Below, piece after piece: positions 12,501-51,816 of a DNA stretch of 64,000 nucleotides; positions within the stretch are counted from its first letter, which is position 1, and every line of letters starts with the position of its first letter. The stretch lies in contig NZ_LR593887.1 in the NCBI RefSeq assembly GCF_901538355.1, forward strand, positions 4,068,920 through 4,132,919, written 5' to 3'. Below the pieces are notes generated by a model. The model was not told the DNA's origin, ran no database searches, and saw only the letters and a program-made list of their open reading frames with translations. This stretch comes from Tuwongella immobilis. GTDB taxonomy: Bacteria; Planctomycetota; Planctomycetia; Gemmatales; Gemmataceae. Both the position numbers and the translations under genes were made by a program.

Positions 12501-15500
12501 CGGTGGACCAAGTTCCTGCAGGCGTCAGCACATATTGATATTGGCTATCGCGATCGGTGCGTTGGCTGCCCGATTCGTTCCAGGTGCCGTGCATCATCGC
12601 ATTCGATGCACTGGTCGAACCATACTCCCCAGAGCCGATGTAACGGGTCGCGTCAAAACTGCTCCCAGAACCCCAGCCTGTGCCGAGGAGCACCAACCAG
12701 GTCGTGCCATCGGCAGCAAGCGACCAATGCTCCTGTTTCTCCTCAGCCCAATTCTGATCGCCGGATTCCCAGGTCGTGCGGCTGCCAGTGTATTGAGTGA
12801 CATCACTGGCATCGGGTGTAAAATCGAACGTGCCTTGTCCCGACCAACTCCACGCGGATTGAGCGGACGCGGTCTGATCCCAGAAACCTTGGGAGGTGCT
12901 CCAATTGCCGCTGGCATCCATGGTATAGCGATACCGTTCATCGTCCGTGCGATTGGATGAGCCTGCCTCGGTCCACGTCCCCGAAAAGGAGCCGGTCCCG
13001 TTGGAACCATCGGTTTCGTAGGTGCCTGCGCCGTTGTACAGAATGGCATCCGACCCTGACCCCGACCCGGTACCTTCGCCCGATATTGCGACCCAACCAG
13101 CCGTCCCGGATTTGGCCCATTCTTGACTGCGCTGCTCCGCCCAATGACGCCTGCCCGATTCCGTGATCGAGCGCGTTCCCGCATAACGCGTGCTGGCACT
13201 CATATCGGGTAGATAAAGCTGCGTGCCAGCCCCGGACCACGCATCATCTTGAGCAGAAAAATCGACTTGCTGATAGGTATGATTCTCGGTCCACGAGCCA
13301 TTGGTGAGCAAGGTTGCGTGGGTTTCCGCCCAGGTGCGTGCATCGGTGGAGGCATGTTGCAGCCACGTCCCGACAAGCGTCGTATTCCCACTCTGATAGC
13401 TGTACGCGCCGCTGCCGGTCGAGAAGGTTTGATCCCAGGTCGATGCAGACTGATGCGCTTGCCCCGATGAGGGCGCCCAACTGCCATTGGTCCCGAGTCC
13501 CCAATGCTGCTGCTGGGTGTATCGAGTCGCCGCCCCCCCTTGCTCGAAGGTTTGGACAGATCCCGTGTATCGTGTGGTTGCGCTGGCGTCCGCTTCGAGG
13601 ATTACGGTCCCCAGGCCGGAATAAAGCTGACCGGTGAATCCCGAAGCGAGTTGGTCGTATCGACCAGCGACAGCAGTCCAGCCACTTCCGGACCAAATCT
13701 CGGACAAGTGTGTCGTTTCCGATTGGGTATCGCGCGCCGATTCGCTCCATGCTCCCGTCATCGTGAAGTTCGAACTGGCGTAGGTGTAGCCACCATCGCC
13801 TGCGTATTGCGTCCATCCCGATGCCGTGTTCACGCTCTCGATCTGACCATCGGTGACCGTCCAATTGCCCGAGGCATCCAGTGCCTTGGAGATCGACTGG
13901 TCCGTTTCCCAGAGCTGATCTTGGAACTCCGCAAAACTGCCACCCCCGTACGTTTGCAGGCCCGGCACGGAACTCGGCGGCATGGTGTAATCGCCGCTGC
14001 CCGAGTTTCGCCAGAATCCCGACGCGGAATCGGCCTGGTTCCAAGTCCCCGACTCACGCCAACGTCCATCGGTCCCAAGCTGATAATTCCGATCCCAATC
14101 CGTCTGGCCAACTTGATTCGCACGCTGCTCCCACATGCCATTGAGTAAGACAGTCCCGATCGACCTGATGTAGCTGCCCCACGCCGTCAATGCTCCCGAT
14201 GCAACGCCTTGCCCAACACCTGAACCCCCACCAGTCTGGGCTTGCCAGGTCGTTGCCCCCATCGACCGCGACCACTGCTCGTGAGTCGTTTCGTTCCACG
14301 AAGAGCCACTGGATTCCAAAATCGTGCCGCCACCCGAATAGATTGGGTTGGCACCCGATGATGCTTCTGGAAGCGTAAACGTGCCCCAGCCTTCCGCCGA
14401 GTTGGCCCAACCACCGGCTTGGTTGCCATTCATGACGGCTGATGATTGCCAGGCTCCCGCATTCGGACGTTCCCAAGTCTCAGTCGTGTGCGAACTGTGA
14501 TCCTGATGACCGGATTCTGACCACGTCCCATCCACGGAGCCCTCACCATTCGAGCCGGCAATCCTCCGACCATATTCACCCGTAGCCGCGTAATTCCAAT
14601 GACTGGCGACAACCGAAGATCCGGTTCCACTGGCTGTCGCGAAGCCCCAACTTCCAGACGCATCCAGATCCCAGGATTGCGTTCGATCGCGGTCGATGAT
14701 CGTGCCGCCCGATTGACGTGCCGTTCCAGTTCCGAATCGCCATTCGGTCGCGTTGACCGTCGACGACGAGCCGACCGAATAGCTGGCAAATCCATCATAA
14801 CGCTCATGCTGCCATTCTCGATCCCGCTCGTTCGATGAGCCGCCATACGTCAGTTGCGAAGCACTTGCATCCCAATTCAAGGTCATTGAATAATCGCGGA
14901 ATGAATCTTGTCCCCGACTGGCGGAGAAGACCCCATTGATTGTCCCGCTGAATGACCCCGACATCGCACGCTGATACGATGCTTGGGCACTCGCCGCAGC
15001 CGTCGCCTCGCTCCAGCCGATATCAGTCGACTGGACATCGCCGCTGCTGGCATCGCGCGACACGCTGAGCGTGCGCGTTTCTTGCTGATCGAGACGGCCC
15101 GCCCAGCCCAACGCCAGATTTTGGCCCTGGAACGAACGAATCTCATTTTGTGATGCCGTCTGATGCGTGTCACGAGTCAATTCGAGATCAAAATCAAGAC
15201 CCGCTGCCGATCCGGTGGCTTGGAAGTGATAGCCGGAATTGCCCCAGTCTCGTCGTGGTCCCGAGTCCCCCGCTCCCCCGATCGTGGTGGTATCAAAGAT
15301 GTAGAGGTAACTTTCGGTATAGGTCCACGAGCCATCCGATTCGACATCCACAGCGGCATCGAACTGGTACGAATAAACCGTTGACGTGAATGACGATTCC
15401 CCAGTCGCATCGGTGATGATCGATTCGGTGGTGTCGCCCCCATCCAAAGCAATGGTTGCATCGCTCGAAACGGTCATTGAGAAGGATCGAAGCGAATCGA

Positions 15501-16164
15501 GCGATATTCCGCTTTGGAGTGTGATCGATGCACCCGCGACAAAATCGTCATCGGTGAGACCGCGAACCGCTTCGGTCATCCCCAACGTGGTGTTTCCGGT
15601 CGTGGTGGATGGATGCGGTGGGACACCCGGATCCGCAGGTGTTGAGGTGCTCAATTGACTGAAGCCAGCCGCCTGCGATCCGACCGGAGGCGGCGAATTG
15701 GTGGCACCTGAACCCCCGCCGCCACCGCTTGGCGGAAGCGGGGCATTGGGCGGAATCCCCGGTGCAACTGGAACCGGTTCGCTCTGAGTGAACACCCGAA
15801 AGAGATCTTCACCGATGGGCGACCAAACATCTGCCGACGAAGGGCCAGTGCCGGTTGTGCTGCCATTCGACGATCCGCTCATCCCACTGCTGACATCGCT
15901 GTATGGATTCTGAGCGAATCCGACGTTGATCCGCCAGCTATCCCAAAGCGGCTGAAATGATTGTCCCGAAGTCGTCCCTTGGGGAGTGTCCGCGAGCGCA
16001 GCCGGGATGGATGGCCCAGCCATCAGATAGCCCATCTCGATCAGAAACGAACCAGGTGCCTCTCGAGATTCGACGGTGTCCAACTGCGGACGAAACCGAA
16101 CGATCGTCGATCTGGTTCGACTGGGAAACCACTTACGGATCAAGCACCACAGCCAGAACTTCAT
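6520..16164 (-). CDS. Giant secreted repeat protein with C-terminal YwqJ-like deaminase toxin domain
   Basis: I place the start at the ATG at 16164, with AGGAG eight bases upstream; the in-frame GTG at 16191 lacks a good site. This gives 3214 residues. Residues 23-39 (RFRPQLDTVESREAPGS) match the planctomycete surface-protein N-terminal motif. A Pro/Gly/Ser region follows, then residues about 220-2680 of degenerate W/G/S/T-rich repeats built around GTWxESG, GxGTY and YTGSG elements. These recur in larger modules and probably form a beta-rich stalk. Residues about 2686-2802 are the linker shared with the displaced cassette. A helical pre-toxin region with hydrophobic segments (for example GTAIVGMLHNRYVYGG) leads to the tip. 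The last 140 residues carry HAE (His about 3159, Glu about 3161) and PCPHC (Cys about 3200 and 3203), the zinc and catalytic residues of the deaminase fold. Unlike the displaced tips it has no Hint domain. The secretion route is not encoded nearby. Confidence 0.85.
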   Translation of the reverse strand: MKFWLWCLIRKWFPSRTRSTIVRFRPQLDTVESREAPGSFLIEMGYLMAGPSIPAALADTPQGTTSGQSFQPLWDSWRINVGFAQNPYSDVSSGMSGSSNGSTTGTGPSSADVWSPIGEDLFRVFTQSEPVPVAPGIPPNAPLPPSGGGGGSGATNSPPPVGSQAAGFSQLSTSTPADPGVPPHPSTTTGNTTLGMTEAVRGLTDDDFVAGASITLQSGISLDSLRSFSMTVSSDATIALDGGDTTESIITDATGESSFTSTVYSYQFDAAVDVESDGSWTYTESYLYIFDTTTIGGAGDSGPRRDWGNSGYHFQATGSAAGLDFDLELTRDTHQTASQNEIRSFQGQNLALGWAGRLDQQETRTLSVSRDASSGDVQSTDIGWSEATAAASAQASYQRAMSGSFSGTINGVFSASRGQDSFRDYSMTLNWDASASQLTYGGSSNERDREWQHERYDGFASYSVGSSSTVNATEWRFGTGTARQSGGTIIDRDRTQSWDLDASGSWGFATASGTGSSVVASHWNYAATGEYGRRIAGSNGEGSVDGTWSESGHQDHSSHTTETWERPNAGAWQSSAVMNGNQAGGWANSAEGWGTFTLPEASSGANPIYSGGGTILESSGSSWNETTHEQWSRSMGATTWQAQTGGGSGVGQGVASGALTAWGSYIRSIGTVLLNGMWEQRANQVGQTDWDRNYQLGTDGRWRESGTWNQADSASGFWRNSGSGDYTMPPSSVPGLQTYGGGSFAEFQDQLWETDQSISKALDASGNWTVTDGQIESVNTASGWTQYAGDGGYTYASSNFTMTGAWSESARDTQSETTHLSEIWSGSGWTAVAGRYDQLASGFTGQLYSGLGTVILEADASATTRYTGSVQTFEQGGAATRYTQQQHWGLGTNGSWAPSSGQAHQSASTWDQTFSTGSGAYSYQSGNTTLVGTWLQHASTDARTWAETHATLLTNGSWTENHTYQQVDFSAQDDAWSGAGTQLYLPDMSASTRYAGTRSITESGRRHWAEQRSQEWAKSGTAGWVAISGEGTGSGSGSDAILYNGAGTYETDGSNGTGSFSGTWTEAGSSNRTDDERYRYTMDASGNWSTSQGFWDQTASAQSAWSWSGQGTFDFTPDASDVTQYTGSRTTWESGDQNWAEEKQEHWSLAADGTTWLVLLGTGWGSGSSFDATRYIGSGEYGSTSASNAMMHGTWNESGSQRTDRDSQYQYVLTPAGTWSTASGVWNEHGQSQSTWQWTGSGRFEYEPDLSAATQYSGERRISESGQRNWQETTDATWNWSGSTWVVATGVGTGSGSGFDSSSFNGNGTYTTPSALVTLSGSGGTSGSSVRVESSGTWWENGEQRSRYETGYQFALNASGDWTTPHAEKLLWEQSNSAWGWNGSGKMSAVASNVIYVIASGSNVTTPPIFSGSTSWSESGSRSWVDQYESEYERSLTDTTWRAVRGSGTGVSDRITDSSFSGNGTYSWTNAGTPVTGTWSDSGGAYRSTHIDRNYTLRVDASHSNSSMTAFWDTEATSQEFFRNRGGFTYTGTGSRSWDWSTSGSASGTSSGSNSFTAASLTYTGTLIYAETDRRDWQDEFVEHWAVAYGVDAEWEQVSGIGTGTASGSGRRTTTAAGTFYGSDASGNTITGAWDASAKDQDDFEASTHHTWVPASGSTSSRYVGAGERTAHDEQFNQFTHHLSASYTYQSGSTSSEWYSGGGQTHLSARESFEQKLTLNYQLDASGTWALSQASGSATSEARTQDDYTGHGTYGWMDASANNRTGSWTESGIDVNTVRITSTLGLNASGQIDVIDQRKTEISSGSSTWGWMGRSQFTYQPASTDAVEYWGSRRTDEWGNDTWTYHLEATYRPDSGSTSSSASGTASGTASGSSDGWTLESYQGTASGQGGTYETYQGSGSYRRMDESNLTIRGTWNEDGESNKDYTEDAVYRINAAGEWELDHSQWYASHSGSGNWDRAGQGSYTYGSATASGSGSASATTSNSAPMSGLHYTGGGTVYDAVTYESSLNWDETWNRSGTASWQLTSGSGSASSRRESTASFAGSGAYTYRDATTILDGLWQESGSTRRLIESQYRDTVVSGTWQTVGSWTQSVDEDSGWDRAGAGTWHTGLTIGYAGSGSLAEAYSTRWQSRTQETWAMNASGSWSVVSGSGTGSNTVDTESQFAGGGTYTSTWNGFPLNGTWNTAQHDQSHDVSSLAWTLGSTGEWTTTGTGRTTWDGSSSASQAGSAAGSLSGSDGWGGLQWSGNATYSDNMSMSGSYSAVLDWTYSNSTWTPTSGTGHHTQIGQWSVGYVGNGTYQRPLDAGTLNGTWSQLGSGSGSWSEDTTLRHLGGTASWETSTHVDETATGSEQFQYAGTGAYHTTSASSWTGYDGSIYNNSSAFHSEAQESGQQGWSYTLTATTDIGWDGVVQGQVTINASGSASQRWDTTASGSSSSDHHNHTSNASSYSRSTSQWMRQIHLGSDTTWSEQYTITQSGSAVSIIGQSSLTRNAWGDASGSSQASGVSGQWVRMQTASMSGTSAPDGTMSGTSAPDGTMSGSMSGSMSGTASGSSSSTSFTSGTTSGDAWYGTESTWNMTSNSQDHYRRETSWIATHGTGSSGWGSASMTNTSTHVWGSWQGSSNHTTTTTNYGGTSTSSYGWPGSGSYDQWQWNEGFGTEIWIGGYGGYGGYGGYGWPGTTGLSPRIGSIPTGPMGAAGWGYVESSASASGSASGFPASGSSGSGSMSGTTSGSGASTQNIGYGGSGSSSSGTGSGSGSTVTPDNGGAGSGSGSSSGSGSGSVSGGIEYFPIGLPLLIGQTPNPQEMPNPVKKFEEDSHDLDFLRDLDLPWVGKKYQEQFQRMSPGDRAGIRDWFLKNGEKNKAEILRQLELRENPGSRHELPEETKQWNAISSLADYLYKHSETERASARAAFEKLQKQQEEARRREINELAENITPYMSDFEREWDRIRRGMQFILFESAAGTAIVGMLHNRYVYGGLQIAGGVLVSVTGTGPLVSGAILFWRIDQILTGGELLFWNPDAKSMGATVIREIGGESKAIRLAELLYDFGPDGLLLVKKLAQLRKINAPASASNSHPLLSTQQLNSLAVEEYAGRVLLGVSKKEIGPVVSIAQDTVTGRVSKVYFNNVDGKYPANLSDVIASRLKTVPEYVKTKGPGSHAEVYAVDELLKARPGAKLSDIQVLTLETADAKRLLTVKPPCPHCDHLLEGVQYLK
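7760..8107. repeat. Linker direct repeat, copy in the giant toxin gene
   Basis: It aligns with 5449-5802 in the displaced cassette in the same orientation and frame. It marks the junction between the conserved stalk and the exchangeable tip. Confidence 0.85.
8551..8610. repeat. 30-bp tandem duplication within the giant gene
   Basis: Two adjacent 30-bp units (8551-8580 and 8581-8610) differ by a single base and encode the decapeptide MSGTSAPDGT twice. Further MSGS/MSGT units follow in the protein, suggesting recent slippage at the end of the stalk. Confidence 0.85.
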
Positions 16165-16712
16165 GTTCGCGGCTCCTGGAAGGGGAGTCACCGATTCTGA
16201 TCGATTGGTGAGATATTATCAGACTTGATCAATCCTACCAGGGGCGTAGCAAAAAAAAGTGTGGATAAGATGGATTAGTCAGGCTGCAACAATTGGGCCG
16301 ACAATAAAGCTTTGGCCGGACGATTTGATGTAAGTGATTGTAAATCGTTATGATTAAGAGAGATAGCTCATTTGCGATCTCAAGGATACGTCACCCAATT
16401 AGAAGCTCGGTCGAAAAGATGAAGGATTTCTCCACGAAAAAAGTTCCCAATGAGTTGTGGATTTGGCAAGTATGAAATCATAGACTTACTGCTGATATAA
16501 TTTAACAAAATAATTGTTATATAAATCTAGCATTTTGAGAGTCTTGAAATCTACCCTGCCGCGAGTCGAGAAGCGAGAAATTACAATCATAACCAAACTT
16601 ACTTGATGGAGACAAATCGTCGAAAACTCGATCACACCTCAACAATAATTGCATATTCATACAACATAAATTTATTATATATTTTGCATCTGCATGACGG
16701 CTGTGAATATCA
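16165..16712. other. AT-rich non-coding gap between toxin locus and integrative element
   Basis: About 550 bp, markedly AT-richer than its surroundings, especially 16490-16700. It must contain the promoter of the giant gene, but I could not pick reliable -35 and -10 boxes. It carries AATTGGGCCGA at 16291-16301, an 11-mer repeated upstream of the primase gene at 22305-22315. No copy of the tRNA-Gly 3' end is present. A 74-codon frame overlapping 16517-16741 has no ribosome binding site or family. Confidence 0.6.
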
Positions 16713-41466: not shown

Positions 41467-43200
41467 ATGGATGCACAACCAAATGGGCCGAATCACTCCC
41501 CCGTGGGGGCACGCATCACCATGGAGGATTCTGCACCGAACCCCATTTCGGATGCACTCGTGGCGTTCTGGAAGCGATTCGGCCCGTATGGCGCGACGGC
41601 TCTCGTGACCGTTGGCTGCATGGGTCTGTTTTGGCTGCTGCAAGTCTTTATCACGCATTCGACATTCTCGGGGAATTTCGCCTGGACGCTGTTCCTTTCC
41701 CGCGATGTCGGCATTCCCGAAGTCGAAGTCAGCCAAGGGATTACGCCGGTCATTGCTCAGTCGGAATGGGATGCCGAGTATGGCTATCACCTCGCCAATG
41801 ATCCCTGGCTGACCAACCCCGACACGGTAGCCCATCTCGATTTGCCGATCCATCGCGGGCAAGCGATTTTCTTCCCGGCCCTGAGTTGGGGATTGGCCAA
41901 AATTGCTGGCTTGCCGATCGTTCCGCCTCGCCTCTTTTTGCTGCTGCATTGGGCGGTCATCGCCTTTGGAATCGGGGCCGTCGCGGGGTGGCTGGTGCGG
42001 CGGGGCATGAGCCTGCTTTGGGTTGTCCCCCTGGCGACCAGTTGGGTGATGCTGCGCGTGACCAGTCATGGCGTCTCGACCGCCGCGGGAGATGCGTTAA
42101 TCGCGCTGACACTCATCGCCGTCAGTGGCGGACATTGGTGCCGATTTCTGATCGTCGGCACAGCACTCACATTGGCACGACCCGATGCGATCTTCCTGAC
42201 CGCAGGTGTGACACTCGCCACCGCGCTCAAACAAACCGCGTGGCAAACCACCCTTCGAGGCCGACCGCTGGTGCTGCTCAGTGCGATTCCCACCGCCGTG
42301 CCGCTCCTCCTGGTGGGCGTGTTGCACGTTCGCTTCCCTGGCGAGGCAGTCACTCTCGGAATCGGCTTAACCCCTTGGCAAGATTGGTTTTCCGCGATTT
42401 CGACTGGCTTCGGCGATGGCCAGATTTGGGCCAGTCTATGGCGGATCGGTTTGACCGCAATTGCGCTGCACACGCTCGTGCGCTGTCTGCGAAATTGGGG
42501 CCAGTCGCCGATTGCGACGGTCGGCCTGCTGTGGCTTCTCGGCGTGATTTTACTGCCCGGTTGGACTTGGCAAACCACCATCAATGCCCCGATTGCGGTC
42601 GGCGGCGTGCTGTTGGTGTCGCTTTTCTTGACGGCGATTGACTCATCCGCACTCAATCGCGGATTGTTCCTCGCCCTCACGATCTGTCACGTCGGCCTGA
42701 TTCAGGGGAATCTGCTCCAAGTCGGGCATTGGTCCCCGCATCAGATGGTGATGCAAGACCAACTCAATCGACCAATTCTCGACCGGGAATTGAATTCCAA
42801 ACTGGTGGATGTCACTAGCTCGGCCACCTGGGTGAATCACACCGAAACACTCCCCCTGCCCACGAATCTCTGGAAGATGTTCCATCGGGAATCGATTGGT
42901 TTTCTGGTTCGTCTGGAGAATCGCACCCAGCAACCCTGGCACCCGCTGCCGCAATCCGGAGAGAATACCATTTCGCTGGCCGTCGAAATTCGCAACGAAG
43001 CGGGCGATCTCGTGCATCAACAGCGTTCGGTGCCCATCTGCCATTCCGTGGCCCCCGGTGAAGCCATTGAACAGGTGATTCCGATTGCACTCAAACGGGG
43101 CAAATATCAAGTGCGGGTTTCAGGATATCAGATCGGAATCGGCTGGTTCGATGACGCAAACTCCGCCAACGGAAGCCGTTACGTGTTGGAATTGAAGTGA
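41467..43200 (+). CDS. GT-C-like polytopic membrane protein, paralogue 2
   Basis: The 577-residue protein starts at the ATG at 41467 with AAGGA six bases upstream. It shares the layout of paralogues 1 and 3: a first membrane segment, HSTFSGNFAWTLFLS, a loop with EWDAEYGYHLANDPWL instead of WDGQFYY, many hydrophobic segments, then a C-terminal beta domain. In this copy the motif reads WDAEYGY, so Gly-Gln-Phe is lost although the Asp remains; substrate or activity may differ. The C-terminal domain includes FHRESIGFLVRLENRTQQPW and APGEAIEQVIPI. It lies 102 bp after paralogue 1 on the same strand and ends at a strong terminator. Confidence 0.72.
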   Translation: MDAQPNGPNHSPVGARITMEDSAPNPISDALVAFWKRFGPYGATALVTVGCMGLFWLLQVFITHSTFSGNFAWTLFLSRDVGIPEVEVSQGITPVIAQSEWDAEYGYHLANDPWLTNPDTVAHLDLPIHRGQAIFFPALSWGLAKIAGLPIVPPRLFLLLHWAVIAFGIGAVAGWLVRRGMSLLWVVPLATSWVMLRVTSHGVSTAAGDALIALTLIAVSGGHWCRFLIVGTALTLARPDAIFLTAGVTLATALKQTAWQTTLRGRPLVLLSAIPTAVPLLLVGVLHVRFPGEAVTLGIGLTPWQDWFSAISTGFGDGQIWASLWRIGLTAIALHTLVRCLRNWGQSPIATVGLLWLLGVILLPGWTWQTTINAPIAVGGVLLVSLFLTAIDSSALNRGLFLALTICHVGLIQGNLLQVGHWSPHQMVMQDQLNRPILDRELNSKLVDVTSSATWVNHTETLPLPTNLWKMFHRESIGFLVRLENRTQQPWHPLPQSGENTISLAVEIRNEAGDLVHQQRSVPICHSVAPGEAIEQVIPIALKRGKYQVRVSGYQIGIGWFDDANSANGSRYVLELK

Positions 43201-43305: not shown

Positions 43306-44061
43306 TTACCAGACGATCGGCGGCTTGTTGATGAGTCGGCGATTGGCCTTTAACTTCCGACGCAGTGCCAGAATAAAGCTCAGTGTGCGACGGGTCAGCT
43401 TGATTTTGCCCCGCAGCGAGCCACCGCCTTTGGCCTCGCCGTGTTTCCGCTCCCCGAAATGCACGGGTAGTTCGACAATGGCCAACTTCGCCAGATTCGC
43501 CTGATGCAAGGCGTACAAATCCAACGAAAAGTCATGCGGCGCATCGCTCCACGTTTCGAAGAACGAGCGATGGAAACACTTCGGTTGTGCATTCACATCG
43601 ACTAATCGACTCCCCAACGCCATCGACGCCAACCAGCCCATGCCAACCGTGAAAATGCGATCAAACAACGGTCGTCCGATCCGCCGCCCGCGGAGGAAGG
43701 TGCGTTCCGGTTCAGGCAGTTCCCGCATGCGATCAAATCCGGTCAGCACATCCCGCGGATCGGTCTGCAAGTCGGCATGCGTCCACGCCAGGAACTCGCC
43801 CTTCGCGGCGCGCAACCCCGACAGAATGCCAAAGCCGTACCCCTGATTGTGAGCGACTTTCACCACGCGGAACGAGACATGGCCGGGAAGTGTCAGTTGT
43901 TCGGTGAAGACGCTCGCCGAACGATCGGTTGAACCATTGTTGACCAACACGACTTCGACATCGGTTCGATCGCCCACGGCTTCGCGGAAGGCGGTGAATA
44001 ACGTCGGCAGATTGTCGGCCTCGTTGTAGCATGGTACGATGATCGATAGTGTTCGGCTCAC
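43306..44061 (-). CDS. GT2 family glycosyltransferase (polyprenyl-phosphate type)
   Basis: The start is a GTG at 44061, preceded by AGGAGGG; it encodes SRTLSIIVPCYNEADN from residue 2, giving 251 residues. Family GT2 features are the IVPCYNE start, NNGSTDRS (about 45), and ADLQTDPRD (about 105), the DxD-like metal-binding region of DPM/GtrB-type enzymes. There is no C-terminal membrane pair, unlike GtrB itself. Such enzymes load a sugar onto polyprenyl phosphate on the cytoplasmic face. With the two GtrA-domain proteins and GT-C-like proteins nearby it could form a Gtr-like three-step surface glycosylation system. It is divergent from the 2H gene. Confidence 0.85.
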   Translation of the reverse strand: MSRTLSIIVPCYNEADNLPTLFTAFREAVGDRTDVEVVLVNNGSTDRSASVFTEQLTLPGHVSFRVVKVAHNQGYGFGILSGLRAAKGEFLAWTHADLQTDPRDVLTGFDRMRELPEPERTFLRGRRIGRPLFDRIFTVGMGWLASMALGSRLVDVNAQPKCFHRSFFETWSDAPHDFSLDLYALHQANLAKLAIVELPVHFGERKHGEAKGGGSLRGKIKLTRRTLSFILALRRKLKANRRLINKPPIVW

Positions 44062-44086
44062 GAAATCCCTCCTGGAAGACAGTGCC

Positions 44087-44716
44087 ATGTCCTTGGCCGC
44101 TTCGTTTCTGGCGTTGCAACCCGATCCCGAATTGACGGAGTTTTTACGGCACGCCAAAGATCGGGTACTGACCTTGGCCGGGGAGCAACTCTATCGTAGT
44201 GATCCGCCGCATCTGACGGTATATCTCGCCTATTTTGCCGATCTTTCGCAAGTCGAAACGCGGTTGCGTGCGCTCGCCAGCGATTGGTCACCGTTCTCCG
44301 GGAATCTGCGTGGCTGGCACGTCTTCGAGAACGATCCGCTCACGACTCGGAATACGCTCGTCTGCCAGATCGATTCGGACGCGTTGCCAATGCTGCGATC
44401 GCTACAATCGGCGGTGATCGATGCCATTGCCCCGCTTCGGAATCATCTCGCAACGCACGCACGATACGCCAATCGCTGGAATGCCTTAACACCCGAGCGA
44501 CAGTCGGCAGTCGAATCGGTCGGCTTTCCATTTATCGGCAACGATTGGCTGCCACATTTCTCCGTCGCATCAATTCTTCCGAATGATTGGCCCCCCGTCT
44601 GGGAAGCCCTGCGCGGCACGCCACCACCTTCGCAGTTCCACATCGCGCAACTGAAACTCTACCGACTCGACGGACTCACCCCCATCGAACTCGCCACCAT
44701 CCCACTCGGCGGATGA
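44087..44716 (+). CDS. 2H phosphoesterase-like protein (2'-5' RNA ligase family)
   Basis: The start is the ATG at 44087 with TGGAAG upstream, giving 209 residues. Two H-x-T/S motifs, PHLTVYL (His 42) and PHFSVAS (His 157), are separated by about 115 residues, as in the 2H phosphoesterase superfamily that includes LigT and cyclic phosphodiesterases. Substrates of this family range from cyclic RNA ends to nucleotide-sugar-derived cyclic phosphates. Its location, divergent from the GT2 gene by 25 bp and convergent with the GDPD-like gene, hints at a role in surface-sugar metabolism, which is only inference. Confidence 0.75.
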   Translation: MSLAASFLALQPDPELTEFLRHAKDRVLTLAGEQLYRSDPPHLTVYLAYFADLSQVETRLRALASDWSPFSGNLRGWHVFENDPLTTRNTLVCQIDSDALPMLRSLQSAVIDAIAPLRNHLATHARYANRWNALTPERQSAVESVGFPFIGNDWLPHFSVASILPNDWPPVWEALRGTPPPSQFHIAQLKLYRLDGLTPIELATIPLGG

Positions 44717-44718
44717 CG

Positions 44719-45321
44719 TTACTCCGCCTCACCGAGGGCGGAGCGCCAGAGGTCAGGGCGTTTGGTGCAGACAGCGTCGAAGGGATAGGGCTCGAGTTCG
44801 GCGGCGTAGGCGGGAATCGTATCCACCGGCCGGCCTTGGAGTTCCGGCGAGACGATGCACAATTTGAAGTGCGATTTCAGACGGGCATACGTTTCGGGCG
44901 TGAGCGGATTTCGGGTGAAGCAATCGACCCACACCCAATCGACTTGACCGGCCAACGCCAGCGCGGATTCGATCGGCTCATATTCGGAAAATCGCACCGC
45001 AATGCGATGCTCGCCGGACTTCACCAACACGCGAATCATCGGAAACGAACAATCCAGGAAAAAATAATCCCGCACGGGATACCGTTTCAGCAACTCCAGC
45101 ACGCGATGTTCGATGCGCTCACTTTTCACATTCAGAATCATCGTTCCATGACGATATTGCTGCAAATATGTCTCGAAATCTTCGCCCGTGGCCCCTTGAA
45201 AGGGGTCGTGCTGCAAGACGAGCCGGTCGCCGTGATCGCGGAGGTCCAACTCCACGCCATATTCCGGCGGTACGTTCGCCAGTTGGGCCACGGTATTCAC
45301 TCGATGGGCGATGTACAACAT
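44719..45321 (-). CDS. Glycerophosphodiester phosphodiesterase-like (GDPD fold) protein
   Basis: The 200-residue protein uses the ATG at 45321, nine bases after AAGGGG. The start IAHRVN, then VELDLR and QHDP, is the metal and catalytic signature of the GDPD/PI-PLC-type TIM barrel (HRxN, ExD, H-D). It is shorter than typical GDPDs (about 240) and has no signal peptide, so it acts in the cytoplasm. It is the last gene of the six-gene operon starting at 49868, 3 bp after the GtrA gene. Its substrate could be a phosphodiester intermediate of the proposed sugar pathway. Confidence 0.72.
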   Translation of the reverse strand: MLYIAHRVNTVAQLANVPPEYGVELDLRDHGDRLVLQHDPFQGATGEDFETYLQQYRHGTMILNVKSERIEHRVLELLKRYPVRDYFFLDCSFPMIRVLVKSGEHRIAVRFSEYEPIESALALAGQVDWVWVDCFTRNPLTPETYARLKSHFKLCIVSPELQGRPVDTIPAYAAELEPYPFDAVCTKRPDLWRSALGEAE

Positions 45322-45324
45322 GAA

Positions 45325-45771
45325 TCAATCCCCTTGCATCATGACCGGCAGTGGCTCATCGAGGGCTGATTCCGAAATCGGCTCCGATCCGCGATTGCGG
45401 AACGTCACCCACTTCAGGCCAACGAAGTTCATCACCGTGCTCACCCCCGTGGCTGTCAGGAATGCGAACAGTTTCCATTCCGCGCCGAGGAACGCCAGAA
45501 CCAGCGAATTGACCGCCACATTCACGCCCAGCGAGCAGGTATACAGCGTCAGATACAGCATCGGCTCGCGCATCGAGCGCGATGACGATTCAAACGTCCA
45601 AAATTTGTTGCCGATGAATCCGAAGATCATGCCGGTGAGATATGCCAACCCCTTGGCCAGACTGGTGCCCAGTCCCGCCCCGGTGAGCAGTGTGTACATT
45701 CCCAAGTCGATCAGCACCGCCGTGCAACCAATGACGACGAACCGAAGCAGTTGTTTGCGGGTCTCAGACAT
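45325..45771 (-). CDS. GtrA family membrane protein (polyprenyl-linked sugar flippase)
   Basis: The start is the ATG at 45771, giving 148 residues; it overlaps the stop of the upstream nucleotidyltransferase gene by 8 bp. Four membrane segments are visible (LLRFVVIGCTAVLIDLGMYTLL, LAYLTGMIFGFIGNKFWTF, and two more), with the GtrA-typical NKFWTF and KWVTFRN. GtrA proteins flip polyprenyl-phosphate-linked sugars across the membrane. A second GtrA domain occurs in the fusion at 48029-49144, so the locus carries two. The C-terminal tail is acidic. Confidence 0.9.
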   Translation of the reverse strand: MSETRKQLLRFVVIGCTAVLIDLGMYTLLTGAGLGTSLAKGLAYLTGMIFGFIGNKFWTFESSSRSMREPMLYLTLYTCSLGVNVAVNSLVLAFLGAEWKLFAFLTATGVSTVMNFVGLKWVTFRNRGSEPISESALDEPLPVMMQGD

Positions 45772-46546
45772 GACGGCCTGCTTTCGATTGCGACCACGCC
45801 CAATAGCGCGTCCAACGCTCATAATCCGCGACATCATCTGGCGTTCCCCAACCGATGTATTTTTCCACGGGGAAAATCGCCACGCGCTTCCCCTGCTCCA
45901 GCAACAGATTTGGTACCACGTCGAGATAAAACTCCCGGTTCACCCGTCGATCGGCTGCGATCAGCCGCTCAATGCCATCGAGCATCAGTTCCGCACTGCG
46001 AAACCAGAAGGTTCCGCTCACGACGGGATCCGAAATCGGCCGATCCGAAATCGCCCGCTTGCACGACACTTCCTGCACCGCACCCATCTCATCCGCACGC
46101 ACCCAACCGTACCATTCCGGCTTGATGACGACACGCGGCTCCCCCGAATACGTCCAGATGAGCGCATCCCAGATCGCATCCGTCGTCATCGCCGTAAATC
46201 GTGACTCATCATAGAGATGCGAATTATCACACGCCGACACCAACACCGATTCATCCCGTTTCAGGAATGGTTCGGCAAGCGCCACGCTACAGGCTTGCCC
46301 CTGCGTGAGGCCGGGAGCGACGACAATTTCTGCATGTGGAATCTGGGCCCGCAGCAGCGTATCGATTTGATTCTGTGCCACATGCTGCGGATGCACCACC
46401 AGCACCACGCGATTGACGACGGGCAACTCGCGAATGACGCGCAGAATCATCGGCACGCCATCAATCGGAATTAACGGCTTGGGTGTTGTGTATCCCGCAT
46501 CTTGAAAGCGTTGCCCCAGCCCGGCCATGGGAATGACCAGTTGCAT
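45764..46546 (-). CDS. Sugar nucleotidyltransferase (NTP_transferase family)
   Basis: The start is the ATG at 46546 with GGAG eight bases upstream, giving 260 residues. The N-terminal signature MAGLGQRFQDAGYTTPKPLIPIDG is the G-x-G-x-R-x(n)-K-P nucleotide-binding loop of sugar-1-phosphate nucleotidyltransferases. SACDNSHLYD is the metal-binding region, and VSGTFWFRS lies in the sugar-binding half. It activates a sugar or polyol phosphate with CTP, GTP or UTP; specificity cannot be read from the sequence. It lies 5 bp after the NTase-phosphatase fusion gene in the same operon. Confidence 0.87.
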   Translation of the reverse strand: MQLVIPMAGLGQRFQDAGYTTPKPLIPIDGVPMILRVIRELPVVNRVVLVVHPQHVAQNQIDTLLRAQIPHAEIVVAPGLTQGQACSVALAEPFLKRDESVLVSACDNSHLYDESRFTAMTTDAIWDALIWTYSGEPRVVIKPEWYGWVRADEMGAVQEVSCKRAISDRPISDPVVSGTFWFRSAELMLDGIERLIAADRRVNREFYLDVVPNLLLEQGKRVAIFPVEKYIGWGTPDDVADYERWTRYWAWSQSKAGRHV

Positions 46547-46551
46547 GGCCG

Positions 46552-48063
46552 TTACTCCGGTTGTTTGGCGAAGGATTGAAACAGTGCCCGCTCGGTCGAT
46601 TCGGGCAAATTCACGAATCGCCCAAATTCTCGCGTTTGAATCACCGTGATTGGCTCCAAATGCGGCACCTGCAAGCGAAACCACTGCGACATCGGCATTC
46701 CCAGCAGTTCGCCGACGAGACAGCGAATGACGCCGTTGTGGGTGCAGGTGATGGTGTTCCCCGACGCAGTCGCCCAGATCGTATCCGCAAATGCGCGAAC
46801 ACGTTGCGCAACCTGCTCGGTATTTTCTCCACCGGGAAAGGTCGGATCGTCGCCACGGGCCCAGGCGGTGAACATCTCGGGAAATTGTCGGCGTGCCTCG
46901 GAGATACTCAGCCCATCGAGTTGGCCGTAGTCGATCTCCAAGAGTCGCTCGTCGGTCTGAATCATCGGCAGCGGGAACTCGGCGGGAAATACCGCTGCAA
47001 GTGCCGCCAGCGTGGCGCGACATCGTCCCGCCGGGGATGACCACACCGCGCTCGGAGCATGGCGAGCGAGTTGCTCGGCGATGCTTCGCGCTTGCGAGTC
47101 TGCGATTGCGTGAATCGGGGCATCGCTTCGACCGAGAAAGCGCAACTCGCCGGCTGCGGTGCGATTGCCGGTGGTTTCCGCATGTCGGAATACGAGGTGG
47201 GTTGTCGCTTCCATCTCAAAGATGCGGCGAAATTGTTGCTCGAAATCGGCCAGAAACGCTTCTAACTCCGCATCCAATCCCGCGAGTGGCGGATCGAAGT
47301 CGAGCGCGAGTTTGCGTCGGGTCAACTCGGCGAGCAGTGGTTCGTATCGATCTCGTCCGACCGGAAAAATCGCAAAAAAAGTCTCGGGCAGATCTGCACC
47401 CGTCGCCACATCATTGCGACGCTGCACCAATTTGAGCAGATTCCGCATGAGAAACCGCATAACATGATAGGCAAACTCGTGGCGATCGCGGATGGTCATC
47501 GGCTTGGCCTGCTTCCGCTCCTGATAGCCCGACTCATCGCAAATCAGCTCGCGGTACGAAACCGCATTGGCGCGAAAATCGCGGAGATAATCCGACAAGC
47601 TGCGACGTGCCCCGAGAAAATGCCGCGGCTGAAGCCCGAAGACGGGGTAAACCTCGGCCAGCGAACGCTTTCGGATCGCCGGCGAACGCTGCCAATCGAG
47701 ACAGGTAAACGGGCTATCGATGACATGCGCGATGTGGCCAGCCACCGAATAGAGCATGACATGCAACACCGCCAATTCCGGCTCATTGAATTTGAGCGGG
47801 CCAAGCGTGGGATTCAATCGCAAGCGGAAACCAAACTCGGCGAGAATCGGCGTAAGCGTGGCGGTGAAGTCGGCCATCAGCGAGTCGAATCGATCACGAT
47901 TGATTCGATCCAGCACCAGCACCAAATCGATATCGCTGATGCCTTCGAGGGTGGGACGGTCGATAAAACTCCCGGTGAGCGTGGCGGATTGAACGGAGGC
48001 ATGCCGATCGACCACCGACCAGATGGCCTCACGAATGCGCGGCTTGAGCTCCCCGTTGTTCAT
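46552..48063 (-). CDS. Nucleotidyltransferase-fold protein fused to histidine phosphatase
   Basis: The start is the ATG at 48063, giving 503 residues. The N-terminal domain has the polymerase-beta-type nucleotidyltransferase signature GSFIDRP followed by DIDLVLV (Asp 44 and 46). A helical middle region follows. Residues about 288-500 are a phosphoglycerate-mutase-like histidine phosphatase with FRHAETTGN (His about 292), a Glu in LLEIDYGQLDGLS, and the second His in CTHNGVIR. The two activities in one chain suggest consecutive steps on a phosphorylated sugar: dephosphorylation and a nucleotidyl or aminoglycoside-like transfer. It overlaps the preceding GtrA-epimerase gene by 35 bp, in another frame. 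Confidence 0.85.
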   Translation of the reverse strand: MNNGELKPRIREAIWSVVDRHASVQSATLTGSFIDRPTLEGISDIDLVLVLDRINRDRFDSLMADFTATLTPILAEFGFRLRLNPTLGPLKFNEPELAVLHVMLYSVAGHIAHVIDSPFTCLDWQRSPAIRKRSLAEVYPVFGLQPRHFLGARRSLSDYLRDFRANAVSYRELICDESGYQERKQAKPMTIRDRHEFAYHVMRFLMRNLLKLVQRRNDVATGADLPETFFAIFPVGRDRYEPLLAELTRRKLALDFDPPLAGLDAELEAFLADFEQQFRRIFEMEATTHLVFRHAETTGNRTAAGELRFLGRSDAPIHAIADSQARSIAEQLARHAPSAVWSSPAGRCRATLAALAAVFPAEFPLPMIQTDERLLEIDYGQLDGLSISEARRQFPEMFTAWARGDDPTFPGGENTEQVAQRVRAFADTIWATASGNTITCTHNGVIRCLVGELLGMPMSQWFRLQVPHLEPITVIQTREFGRFVNLPESTERALFQSFAKQPE

Positions 48064-49144
48064 ACTTCGCCCCTGTCTTGAGCACATGAATCACCCGGAC
48101 TGGATTCATGGCCTGCAACACTGCACTGGCCGCCACGACATAGCGTGCTCGGATACGGCCAATCGTCTCCGTGTTGACGCTTCCATCAAACATCACTTCG
48201 TAGCCGTATCGACTCCGCATCGAATCGAACCATTCGGCCATCTGAAGCGCTCGGGGATTCATCGGTTGCCCCGAGACGCCCGGCTGACCGATGCCCAGAA
48301 TCATGACAAAATCGACATGCGGCAACAGCGGAAACATCGTCTCCACGTCGCAGCTTTCATGCCAAACGATGCCGACTTTCTTGCCCCGAATTCGACATTC
48401 GCAGATCCAATGCAACAAATTCGGCGTGTTCGCATGCAAGAGATACCAGTCAACCTGCTCCCAGGTCAACTTCAACCAGCGTTGCGGATCGGTGGACATG
48501 ACATGCAGCGCGACGGGCAGCCGATCCCCCCACAATCGCCGCACTTGTCGTAATTTGCGAAGATCGACGGGTGCCGCGTGGGGGTTCATCGTCTCATCGA
48601 CTAAATCCACATGAATATGATCGCAATGGTAGCCGACCCGACGAAAAATCCGGGCCACCTTTTCTGCGGGTGTGGCATACACGGCGATGCCAAACTCGCG
48701 GGCCTGATCGAAGGTAAATCGCCGGTGGAGCGCATAGGCGAACAGAAACAGCACCCCCGCCGACACGAGCCGCGCCCAGCCGTACCCCTGCCCGGAGAGA
48801 TCCCGAAACAGCGTCACCGCCGCCATATTCAGCGTGAAGGAAACGAGCGATACCAGCGCATACCGGGCAAACGTGCTCCAGAAATAATGCTTCGGCACCT
48901 GAAAATTCACGAGTGCATTCAACGAATACGAGACGCTCAGCCCGACCAGAAATGCCAGGAACGCGCGAGTCACCCACCCCCAATTGGGCGGCATCATCCC
49001 CACGAGCATGATTTCCAGAACGATTGCGAAAACACCAATTGCGGCGAATTTGGCCAAGTAGCGATGGCGATAGGCGTAGTACGACAACCGGGAATAGCGA
49101 AGACAATCGATCTGACGACGAAGCCGGTGAATGGGTTGGAACAT
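48029..49144 (-). CDS. GtrA-type membrane domain fused to ribulose-phosphate 3-epimerase-like domain
   Basis: The start is the ATG at 49144 with AAGGAA upstream, giving 371 residues. Residues about 28-145 are a GtrA-like four-helix membrane domain (AKFAAIGVFAIVLEIMLVG, LNALVNFQVPKHYF, RRFTFDQA). Residues about 155-350 form a TIM barrel of the ribulose-phosphate 3-epimerase family. All four metal ligands are in register: His178 and Asp180 (HIHVD), His214 (ALHVM) and Asp320 (FDGSV), with spacing as in known epimerases. GQPGVSGQ matches the PGFGGQ phosphate-binding turn. A membrane-tethered epimerase fused to a flippase domain is unusual. It probably supplies or channels a pentulose phosphate for surface-sugar export. 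Confidence 0.85.
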   Translation of the reverse strand: MFQPIHRLRRQIDCLRYSRLSYYAYRHRYLAKFAAIGVFAIVLEIMLVGMMPPNWGWVTRAFLAFLVGLSVSYSLNALVNFQVPKHYFWSTFARYALVSLVSFTLNMAAVTLFRDLSGQGYGWARLVSAGVLFLFAYALHRRFTFDQAREFGIAVYATPAEKVARIFRRVGYHCDHIHVDLVDETMNPHAAPVDLRKLRQVRRLWGDRLPVALHVMSTDPQRWLKLTWEQVDWYLLHANTPNLLHWICECRIRGKKVGIVWHESCDVETMFPLLPHVDFVMILGIGQPGVSGQPMNPRALQMAEWFDSMRSRYGYEVMFDGSVNTETIGRIRARYVVAASAVLQAMNPVRVIHVLKTGAKYEQRGAQAAHS

Positions 49145-49178: not shown

Positions 49179-49868
49179 TTACGCCGCGCGATTCTTCGGG
49201 GGAGCGTTGGTCGATTGGCCGTAATTGTGCTGATACCGGTCGTACCACTTCCGCGCTTCGGATTCGGGAATCGCCGCGGGTTGGCCGATCTGCAAGGCCA
49301 GCCAGACGGTTTTCGCCACATCCTCCACCATGGTCGCCGCTTTGAGCGCAGCCGGGGCGGAATTCCCCCAGGCGAACACGCCATGATTGGCCAGCAAAAT
49401 CGCTGGGGCTTGCGTGCGATGCGCGACAATCGCGCGACCAATCGCGTCGCCTTCGTTCGAGACATACGGCGCGCACGGCACCTCACCGCCAAACTCATCC
49501 GCAATGGCTGTCAGCACCAGCGGAATCGGGCGATGACATGCCGCAAATGCCGTCGCATAATTGCTGTGCGTGTGGATGATGAATTCCACATCCCGGAAGT
49601 GGCGATACAAATACAGATGGTGCGGCAAATCGACACTGGGCCGCAGATGGCCATCAATCACGCACCCCGAATCGACATCCACTTCCACCAGATCCGGCGG
49701 CGTAATCTGCGAATAATCCATCCCCGATGGTTTAATCACCAGCCGACCGCTGCGGCGATCGTACCCGCTGGCGTTGCCGGAGTGCATCACCACGAGCCCA
49801 TGTTGGGGCAGCGCGCGATTGAGCCAACAGACCTGTTCCCGCAGATCGGAAAGGCGTGTATCTCGCAT
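49179..49868 (-). CDS. Class II aldolase/adducin family protein (L-ribulose-5-phosphate 4-epimerase-like)
   Basis: The 229-residue protein shows the zinc ligands of the AraD/FucA family: His99 and His101 in IIHTHS, and His162 in LLANHGVFAWG. GNASGYD and KPSGMDY form the phosphate-binding loops near the N-terminus. Family members cleave fuculose-1-phosphate or epimerise ribulose-5-phosphate at C4; the sequence does not decide which. It is the first gene of the six-gene minus-strand operon, 34 bp before the GtrA-epimerase fusion. Two enzymes acting on pentulose phosphates in one operon suggest an unusual pentose or tetrose precursor. Confidence 0.87.
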   Translation of the reverse strand: MRDTRLSDLREQVCWLNRALPQHGLVVMHSGNASGYDRRSGRLVIKPSGMDYSQITPPDLVEVDVDSGCVIDGHLRPSVDLPHHLYLYRHFRDVEFIIHTHSNYATAFAACHRPIPLVLTAIADEFGGEVPCAPYVSNEGDAIGRAIVAHRTQAPAILLANHGVFAWGNSAPAALKAATMVEDVAKTVWLALQIGQPAAIPESEARKWYDRYQHNYGQSTNAPPKNRAA

Positions 49869-50091: not shown

Positions 50092-51816
50092 ATGTCATCT
50101 GCCGAAACGCCCCCGGTTGCATCCAGCGAGTCCGCCACCGCGATGCCGCAACAGAGTCTCGCCTCGCCGATTCCGCTCCGCGAATCGCTGCGGATCGGGG
50201 TTATCGTGGGATTGTTGAGTTTCTGCGTGCTTTGGACCTATCAATCCTTCGTGACGCATTATTCCTTTTCGGGAAACTTCGGATGGACGCTCCTTCCCGG
50301 GCTGAAATTCGGAATCCCCGCCCACGAGCAATCGCACGGCATGACGGTCGTGACCGATGAATTGGGGTGGGATGGCCAATTCTATTATCATCTCGCGAAC
50401 GATCCACTGCAACGCTCCCCCGAGACAACCGCCTGCATCGATCACCCGCATTATCGCGGACAACGGATTTTCTTCCCGGCGATGGCGTTTCTGCTGGCAA
50501 AACTCCTGGGCATGGCGATTGTTCCGCCGATTCTCTTCTTCGCGCTGCATTGGCTGACGATCTCCGCCGGGGTGGGTGCGCTGGCGGGGTGGCTGCATCA
50601 GCAGCGGTTGAGCCTTTGGTGGGCGCTTCCTTGGGCGAGTTGGTGGGGCGTGCTGCATCCGACATCACACGGGTTGCCCGATGGCGCGTGCGATGCACTG
50701 TTCATTCTGAGCATCCTCGCACTGCAATCGCAGCGACTGCTGGCATATTCGGTGGCGGCAACCGCACTCTGCCTGGCGCGCGAAGGCTACGCCGTCTACG
50801 CATTCGGTGTCTGGTTGCTCTCCACATCCACACTCGTCAAATGGTCGAATGATCGCCGCTATTGGGCATCATTCCTGCTCACCGCACTTCCCGGCATCGT
50901 CGTGGTCGCATGGGCTGCGTATTTGCAACTGCATCTGAATGTCCCCGAATCGACTCCACGCACGCCGAATCATCCCGTCAGCCTCCCGTGGGTGGCTTGG
51001 TATGGCGAAGTCATGAGCGGAATTCGCAACGGGTTATCGCAAGAGGTCACGTGGCAGATTTTCGCCGGGCTGTTGCTGATTCTGGTCACGACGCGCACCA
51101 TCGTCAACGCTCGTTCATCGCCGACAATTTCCGCCGGAATCCCCTATTTGCTCCTCACCATGTGCTTGGGGAAAATGGTCTGGGAAAACTATTCCGGCTA
51201 TCCCAAGGCGATGGGTTCGATCATTCTCATGGGCATCTTTCTGCTGCCGAAGGATCGAAGTTGGTGGCTGCGCTCGATGCTCGCTGGGTGCGTGCTGATC
51301 AGTGCGCAAATGCTGTTCCATGCACGGGTTGCGTATCCGATGCATTATTCGACGGCAGTGCTGGCCCGCAATTTGGGCCTGCAACAACCGCAACCCGATC
51401 CCACCCCGAATCGCAAATTCGACCGCTTTGACGGATCGATTATTTGGCAGAACGCCCAAGCGGAAATCGGGCTCCCGAAATCACTTTGGAATGCCTTCCA
51501 CCGCGAATCGATTCCGTTCCTGGTCACCGTGGAAAATCGCTCGCCGTTCCCCTGGTATCCGATGCCGCAGCACGGGCCAATGGCGATTCATTTGGCGGTG
51601 CAAATTTTGGATGCCGATACCCAAGAAGTCCTGACGCTGCAAACGGTGCCAATTCTCCGCGTGATTCCGCTAGGCGAATCGCTCACGCAAGTGATCCCGA
51701 TTCCTCTGCCTCGCGGCCGCTACATCGTTCGTGTCACCGGGTTACAACAAGGCAACGCGTGGTTCGACGAAATCAATCCGGCAATGGGACGCCGCTACCC
51801 GTTGACCATCCGCTGA
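50092..51816 (+). CDS. GT-C-like polytopic membrane protein, paralogue 3
   Basis: The 574-residue protein starts at the ATG at 50092, eight bases after GAGG. After a first membrane segment it has HYSFSGNFGWTLLPG and GWDGQFYYHLANDPL, the likely GT-C catalytic loop, in the same position as in paralogue 1. About ten hydrophobic segments follow, then the C-terminal domain with FHRESIPFLVTVENRSPFPW and PLGESLTQVIPIPL. It is closer to paralogue 2 in that C-terminal domain. It lies on the far side of the sugar operon, divergent from it, so the three paralogues flank the biosynthesis genes. The transferred sugar is unknown. Confidence 0.73.
   Translation: MSSAETPPVASSESATAMPQQSLASPIPLRESLRIGVIVGLLSFCVLWTYQSFVTHYSFSGNFGWTLLPGLKFGIPAHEQSHGMTVVTDELGWDGQFYYHLANDPLQRSPETTACIDHPHYRGQRIFFPAMAFLLAKLLGMAIVPPILFFALHWLTISAGVGALAGWLHQQRLSLWWALPWASWWGVLHPTSHGLPDGACDALFILSILALQSQRLLAYSVAATALCLAREGYAVYAFGVWLLSTSTLVKWSNDRRYWASFLLTALPGIVVVAWAAYLQLHLNVPESTPRTPNHPVSLPWVAWYGEVMSGIRNGLSQEVTWQIFAGLLLILVTTRTIVNARSSPTISAGIPYLLLTMCLGKMVWENYSGYPKAMGSIILMGIFLLPKDRSWWLRSMLAGCVLISAQMLFHARVAYPMHYSTAVLARNLGLQQPQPDPTPNRKFDRFDGSIIWQNAQAEIGLPKSLWNAFHRESIPFLVTVENRSPFPWYPMPQHGPMAIHLAVQILDADTQEVLTLQTVPILRVIPLGESLTQVIPIPLPRGRYIVRVTGLQQGNAWFDEINPAMGRRYPLTIR

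Follow-up and report, generated by a model that had tools for sequence, protein, structure and literature searches.

In the pentofuranose systems built from PPPRS, MATE and GT136 components, the donor is produced by PPPRS, and the lipid-linked sugar is the expected target of the epimerases, which are SDR or DprE1/E2 proteins (PMC11127046). This three-component system is the closest described concept to a set of genes found in the planctomycete Tuwongella immobilis, within a stretch of 64,000 nucleotides (contig NZ_LR593887.1, positions 4,068,920 to 4,132,919; hereafter the window). As in three-component glycosylation of both the GtrB/GtrA/GT-C and the PPPRS/MATE/GT136 kind, the set combines a GT2 and a GtrA protein with a candidate GT-C and auxiliary epimerases. 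In contrast to the pentofuranose systems, the epimerases here are of the ribulose-phosphate 3-epimerase (RPE) and AraD types, which are enzymes of open-chain sugar phosphates, and they are accompanied by LigT, GDPD and NT/phosphatase proteins. The RPE-type enzyme is fused to a GtrA-like membrane domain and is termed GtrA-RPE. With about even chances, GtrA-RPE would be a membrane-tethered ketose-phosphate 3-epimerase that, together with a neighbouring 4-epimerase, supplies a rare pentulose or pentose precursor to GT2-GtrA-GT-C surface glycosylation.

A GtrA-RPE fusion conserved in Planctomycetota

The GtrA-RPE gene (48029..49144, minus strand) is a single open reading frame (ORF) with its ATG at 49144 and a stop codon ending at 48029, and encodes 371 amino acids. 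Pfam placed GtrA_DPMS_TM (PF04138) at residues 32–145 (E=4e-14; 53.2 bits against a cut-off of 26.1) and Ribul_P_3_epim (PF00834) at residues 172–342 (E=2e-16; 60.3 bits against a cut-off of 21.1). One ORF with both matches above the gathering scores bears out an earlier note on this DNA, made from the sequence alone, which had placed a GtrA-like and an RPE domain in one protein. The RPE-family barrel spans residues 152–371, and the N-terminus is Arg-rich, with seven Arg/Lys within thirty residues. The four metal ligands named in that note, His178, Asp180, His214 and Asp320, are all present and align with those of solved RPEs and AlsE; the His-x-Asp, His, Asp set is kept in 14 of 14 homologues.

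Structure prediction and a search for further fusions had both been named as checks in the earlier note. The model, built from two sequences only and of moderate confidence (pLDDT 66, pTM 0.52), predicted four long helices followed by a domain of alternating strands and helices, the latter matching an RPE-type barrel. RPE/AlsE structures were the top Foldseek matches (E=6e-8), and with VIA the RPE-family structures reached Z 15.8–17.9 against at most 13.7 for the next family, the best match being 3ct7 (Z 17.9, rmsd 2.8 over 186 residues). When 392 genomes of the phylum were searched with a profile, GtrA-RPE turned up in five besides the window's own, and a class-wide search brought the total to 14 planctomycete genomes (the window's own included), which belong to at least six families in two classes. 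Within Gemmataceae, three of 95 genomes carried the protein: the window's own, Limnoglobus roseus (loci L003/L035, 55 % identity) and one relative. PF00834 matched all eight homologues scanned and PF04138 seven of them; we take the remaining one to be that of genome G467, in which the N-terminal half of the fusion is hydrophobic and by eye not recognisable as GtrA. In the closest pair examined (L060/L061), dN/dS was approximately 0.04 in both halves, indicating that both are under purifying selection.

Outside Planctomycetota, the search covered plasmids, phages, viral contigs and one peptide-pattern scan of genome contigs. Plasmids gave matches to the RPE half only (≤29 % identity), phages gave just distant matches at the level of ordinary RPEs, and viral contigs held no relative of GtrA-RPE; a phage or viral origin was rejected on the basis of the phage and viral-contig searches. 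Neither a GtrA-RPE fusion nor AZOBR_p60025, a protein name that recurs below, was found in the literature searched.

An AraD-like neighbour and a recurring gene module

Separated from the GtrA-RPE gene by 34 bases is a gene for an AraD-like L-ribulose-5-phosphate 4-epimerase of the class II aldolase family (49179..49868, minus strand). Its product exceeded the cut-off of NCBIfam model NF005123 (255.2 bits against 251) and matched E. coli AraD (1jdi) with E=7e-37. Residues D80, H99, H101, D124 and Y216 correspond to AraD D76, H95, H97, D120 and Y229, with the Asp120 column fixed by structure 1k0w, which has Asn at that position, and all five equivalents occur in 14 of 14 AraD-like copies of the module. 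Of these, Asp120 and Tyr229 have been reported as the residues responsible for epimerisation in AraD (PMC5434028).

Eight genes recur across genomes in shuffled order, encoding GtrA-RPE, the AraD-like protein, LigT, the NT-like/histidine-phosphatase protein, an NTP-transferase, GtrA, a GDPD-like protein and GT2. Membrane proteins resembling AZOBR_p60025 often border the module. GtrA-RPE was co-located with GT2 and/or other module genes, usually also with a second, stand-alone GtrA, which supports the earlier note in linking an enzyme of the RPE type to the machinery for lipid-linked sugars. When the GDPD-like gene was used as a tracer (E below 1e-100), it and GtrA-RPE were present in exactly the same six of the 392 phylum genomes. 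The probability of this co-occurrence by chance is approximately 2e-13 if genomes are independent, a figure inflated by shared ancestry, as three of the six belong to one genus. In G467, LigT, the NT-like domain and the histidine phosphatase lie in one ORF of 714 amino acids (L063, 4503–6647, minus strand), which suggests that LigT and the NT/phosphatase protein act together.

In the window, the minus-strand genes of the set are tightly packed. The NT/phosphatase gene (46552..48060, minus) starts within the end of the GtrA-RPE gene, the two sharing 32 bases. The NT/phosphatase product has a histidine phosphatase domain (PF00300, E=6e-38) after a nucleotidyltransferase (NT)-like N-terminal domain with a GS...DID motif (conserved in eight of eight). 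The NT assignment of this domain is a putative one, made from the motif and weak oligonucleotide-cyclase matches only; a model of it (two sequences, pLDDT 61) matched no PDB structure significantly. An NTP-transferase resembling sugar/alditol-phosphate nucleotidyltransferases (45764..46546, minus) matched PF00483 and PF12804 (both E=5e-9) and, weakly, IspD, and is conserved in the module. The stand-alone GtrA protein (45325..45771, start taken at 45771, minus) matched PF04138 with E=1e-19. The adjoining GDPD/PI-PLC-like phosphodiesterase (44719..45321, minus) had no match in the Pfam scan and takes its family name from the RefSeq annotation of homologues; it is 71–75 % identical among planctomycete modules. 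The GDPD active-site pattern His-Arg, Glu-x-Asp, His-Asp is invariant in this family. The 2H phosphoesterase (2'-5' RNA ligase/LigT; 44087..44716, start taken at 44087; PF13563, E=4e-15) is divergent, on the plus strand. The GT2 (43306..44088, start taken at 44088, minus; PF00535, E=3e-19) is of the polyprenyl-phosphate-sugar synthase (DPMS/ArnC-like) type and also matched, below the cut-off of that model, the undecaprenyl-phosphate 4-deoxy-4-formamido-L-arabinose transferase (E=2e-12).

Two related AZOBR_p60025-like membrane proteins flank the gene set, one on each side. The first (50092..51816, plus) is a large protein of a type linked to surface glycopolymer formation and a candidate GT-C; it has a homologue in the Azospirillum module described below, and its similarity to the AZOBR_p60025 family is weak (NF046093, E=1e-37; 129.5 bits, below the cut-off of 150). 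The second candidate GT-C (41467..43200, plus) matched the same Azospirillum protein with E=8e-8. Elsewhere in the window, a very long ORF of 3,223 amino acids occupies 6520–16191 on the minus strand.

Related modules on proteobacterial plasmids

A related module was found on plasmids of Azospirillum brasilense and Hirschia baltica and on an E. coli IncR plasmid (loci L036, L037 and L038; NZ_CP032350.1, NC_012983.1 and NZ_CP145712.1). In E. coli, the cassette occurred in only two of 5,426 genomes, both times on plasmids. Shared with the planctomycete module are GT2, GtrA, the GDPD-like protein (51–54 % identity), NTP-transferase and a class II aldolase, together with an AZOBR_p60025-like gene in Azospirillum. 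However, the NTP-transferases are in tandem, and the places of GtrA-RPE, LigT and the NT/phosphatase protein are taken by a HAD phosphatase and a GT87-PRK kinase fusion. Only in Azospirillum did the membrane part of this fusion match GT87, and weakly; the fused kinase domain is of the phosphoribulokinase/uridine-kinase type. Both modules have a soluble sugar-phosphate enzyme joined to a membrane domain. The proteobacterial aldolase differs from the AraD-like protein in having Glu at the AraD Asp76 position and lacking the YGQ tail, and the sugar of this module may therefore differ.

Proposed pathway

On pentulose-5-phosphates, RPE acts at C3 and AraD at C4. Because one enzyme would alter C3 and the other C4, the AraD-like protein and GtrA-RPE form a plausible pair, and it is mainly on account of this pairing that a pentulose phosphate is proposed as substrate. 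The GtrA-derived four-helix half would tether the RPE barrel to the membrane on its cytoplasmic side, since four helices put both ends of the domain on one side and the N-terminus is rich in Arg/Lys. The two epimerases would interconvert pentulose-5-phosphates or a close analogue, for example D-ribulose-5-phosphate to D-xylulose-5-phosphate (C3) and then to L-ribulose-5-phosphate (C4). Activation and trimming of the product may then fall to the NTP-transferase, the NT/phosphatase protein, LigT and the GDPD-like protein. GT2 would charge polyprenyl phosphate with a sugar, flipping would be the task of the stand-alone GtrA, and a GT-C would transfer the sugar to a surface glycan.

RPE-type catalysis proceeds through an enediolate beside a free ketone. 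The earlier note had suggested a new reaction on a polyprenyl-linked pentose, and this was not borne out in that form and is disfavoured: the chemistry requires a free ketone beside C3, and the glycosidic link to the lipid phosphate locks the carbon that is needed. The conserved phosphate loop of GtrA-RPE points to a small phosphorylated ketose.

Substrate of the RPE half

A canonical RPE is encoded elsewhere in the genome (G000:C1:1276775), so GtrA-RPE was rejected as a stand-in for a missing housekeeping enzyme and is a specialised paralogue. It is a member of the RPE family, 23–32 % identical to ordinary RPEs of the same family, and fell far below the cut-off of the rpe equivalog TIGR01163 (51.9 bits against 212.6), and is not classed here as housekeeping Rpe. 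With the RPE/AlsE family (PF00834) it shares the barrel fold, the His-x-Asp/His/Asp metal set, the phosphate-loop Gly and the S340 position, while differing in its fusion to a membrane domain and in its pocket. The pocket of the fused clade was compared with those of 19 canonical planctomycete RPEs. The fused clade retains the catalytic residues, Met216, the phosphate-loop residues G289, G292 and Q293, and G321, and S340 is invariant across it. It has Ser replaced by Ala154, Leu by Tyr156 and Met by Val182, and mostly also Gly by Glu184, His by Thr185, Phe by Met186 and Met by Leu283, all at positions where the canonical set shows little or no variation. The claim of the earlier note that the domain is apparently active therefore stands for the catalytic chemistry, which is probably RPE-type, but does not extend to the pocket. 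Given the separate canonical RPE and the fixed pocket changes, free ribulose-5-phosphate may not be the substrate.

Several observations weigh against a pentulose pathway of the kind proposed. With the pocket residues altered, the substrate of GtrA-RPE may not be a pentulose-5-phosphate; the stretches read in genomes G563 and G618 show only the 4-epimerase and GtrA-RPE, with GT2 too in G563; the scheme offers no obvious role for the NT domain, LigT or GDPD; and in the proteobacterial module the neighbour is of the aldolase type (Glu) and an RPE is missing, so that the sugar could be a different one or the core chemistry could lie elsewhere. The alternative that fares best is that the RPE half uses a non-standard ketose phosphate, such as D-allulose-6-phosphate, L-xylulose-5-phosphate or a nucleotide-activated ketose, instead of a D-pentulose-5-phosphate. 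The fixed replacements and the housekeeping RPE are consistent with this, as is D-allulose-6-phosphate 3-epimerase being the top PDB match by both sequence and fold. However, RPE and AlsE were tied in Z (VIA) for the barrel, and the adjoining AraD-like protein has the full residue set of a pentulose-5-phosphate 4-epimerase, leaving this alternative credible but somewhat short of even chances.

Role of the GtrA half

Views on GtrA proteins are divided between anchor and flippase: both roles have been proposed for Rv3789, and biochemical evidence of flipping by GtrA-family proteins such as GtcA has been described as lacking (PMC7389260). The membrane half of GtrA-RPE has the four-helix domain of the GtrA/DPMS family (PF04138; GtrA, GtcA, Rv3789), matched in seven of eight homologues, but differs from that family in carrying a C-terminal enzyme domain in a module that holds a second GtrA. 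The earlier note had called it a flippase and envisaged substrate channelling, in which a working flippase subunit would couple the epimerase to export. The Pfam matches and the strong purifying selection on this half agree with such a role. The separate GtrA in the window and in most modules argues against it, as do the fused half of G467, still hydrophobic yet without GtrA similarity, and the state of the evidence on flipping described above; moreover, GT2 and nucleotide activation, at least, should separate the epimerase from the flippase. Coupling to export is therefore rather unlikely. The four-helix GtrA domain of the earlier note stands and its flippase function is doubtful; the membrane half is probably an anchor, a role favoured by the presence of a stand-alone GtrA and by the loss of GtrA similarity in G467.

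That the RPE half has lost its activity and serves as a scaffold or sensor is very improbable: the altered pocket would fit such a role, but distant homologues keep every metal and acid/base residue as well as the glycines of the phosphate loop, and the catalytic residues are invariant. A merger of two genes through assembly or sequencing error has practically no chance of being correct, as nothing was found in its favour and the same lone ORF recurs in 14 genomes, several of them single-contig; this recurrence, with the profile and fold matches, also excludes a chance motif.

Possible implications for envelope glycan synthesis

The membrane-tethered epimerase reading allows a further, tentative proposal, to which we give less than even chances. 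Through the module, a rare pentose or pentulose linked to polyprenyl phosphate may be made by a route not described before: a membrane-bound RPE and an AraD enzyme would epimerise C3 and C4 on open-chain sugar phosphates beside the flippase, with nucleotidyl-transfer, 2H-phosphodiesterase and GDPD steps. To our knowledge, these last steps are familiar from no glycan pathway. GtrA-RPE also bears on the question of whether the role of GtrA domains is to flip lipids or to anchor partners, as here GtrA is the membrane half of an enzyme. If the proposal is true, an enzyme of the pentose-phosphate-pathway type would be joined to envelope glycan synthesis, and the module would constitute an uncharacterised surface-sugar pathway, patchy in planctomycetes and with a related version on proteobacterial plasmids.
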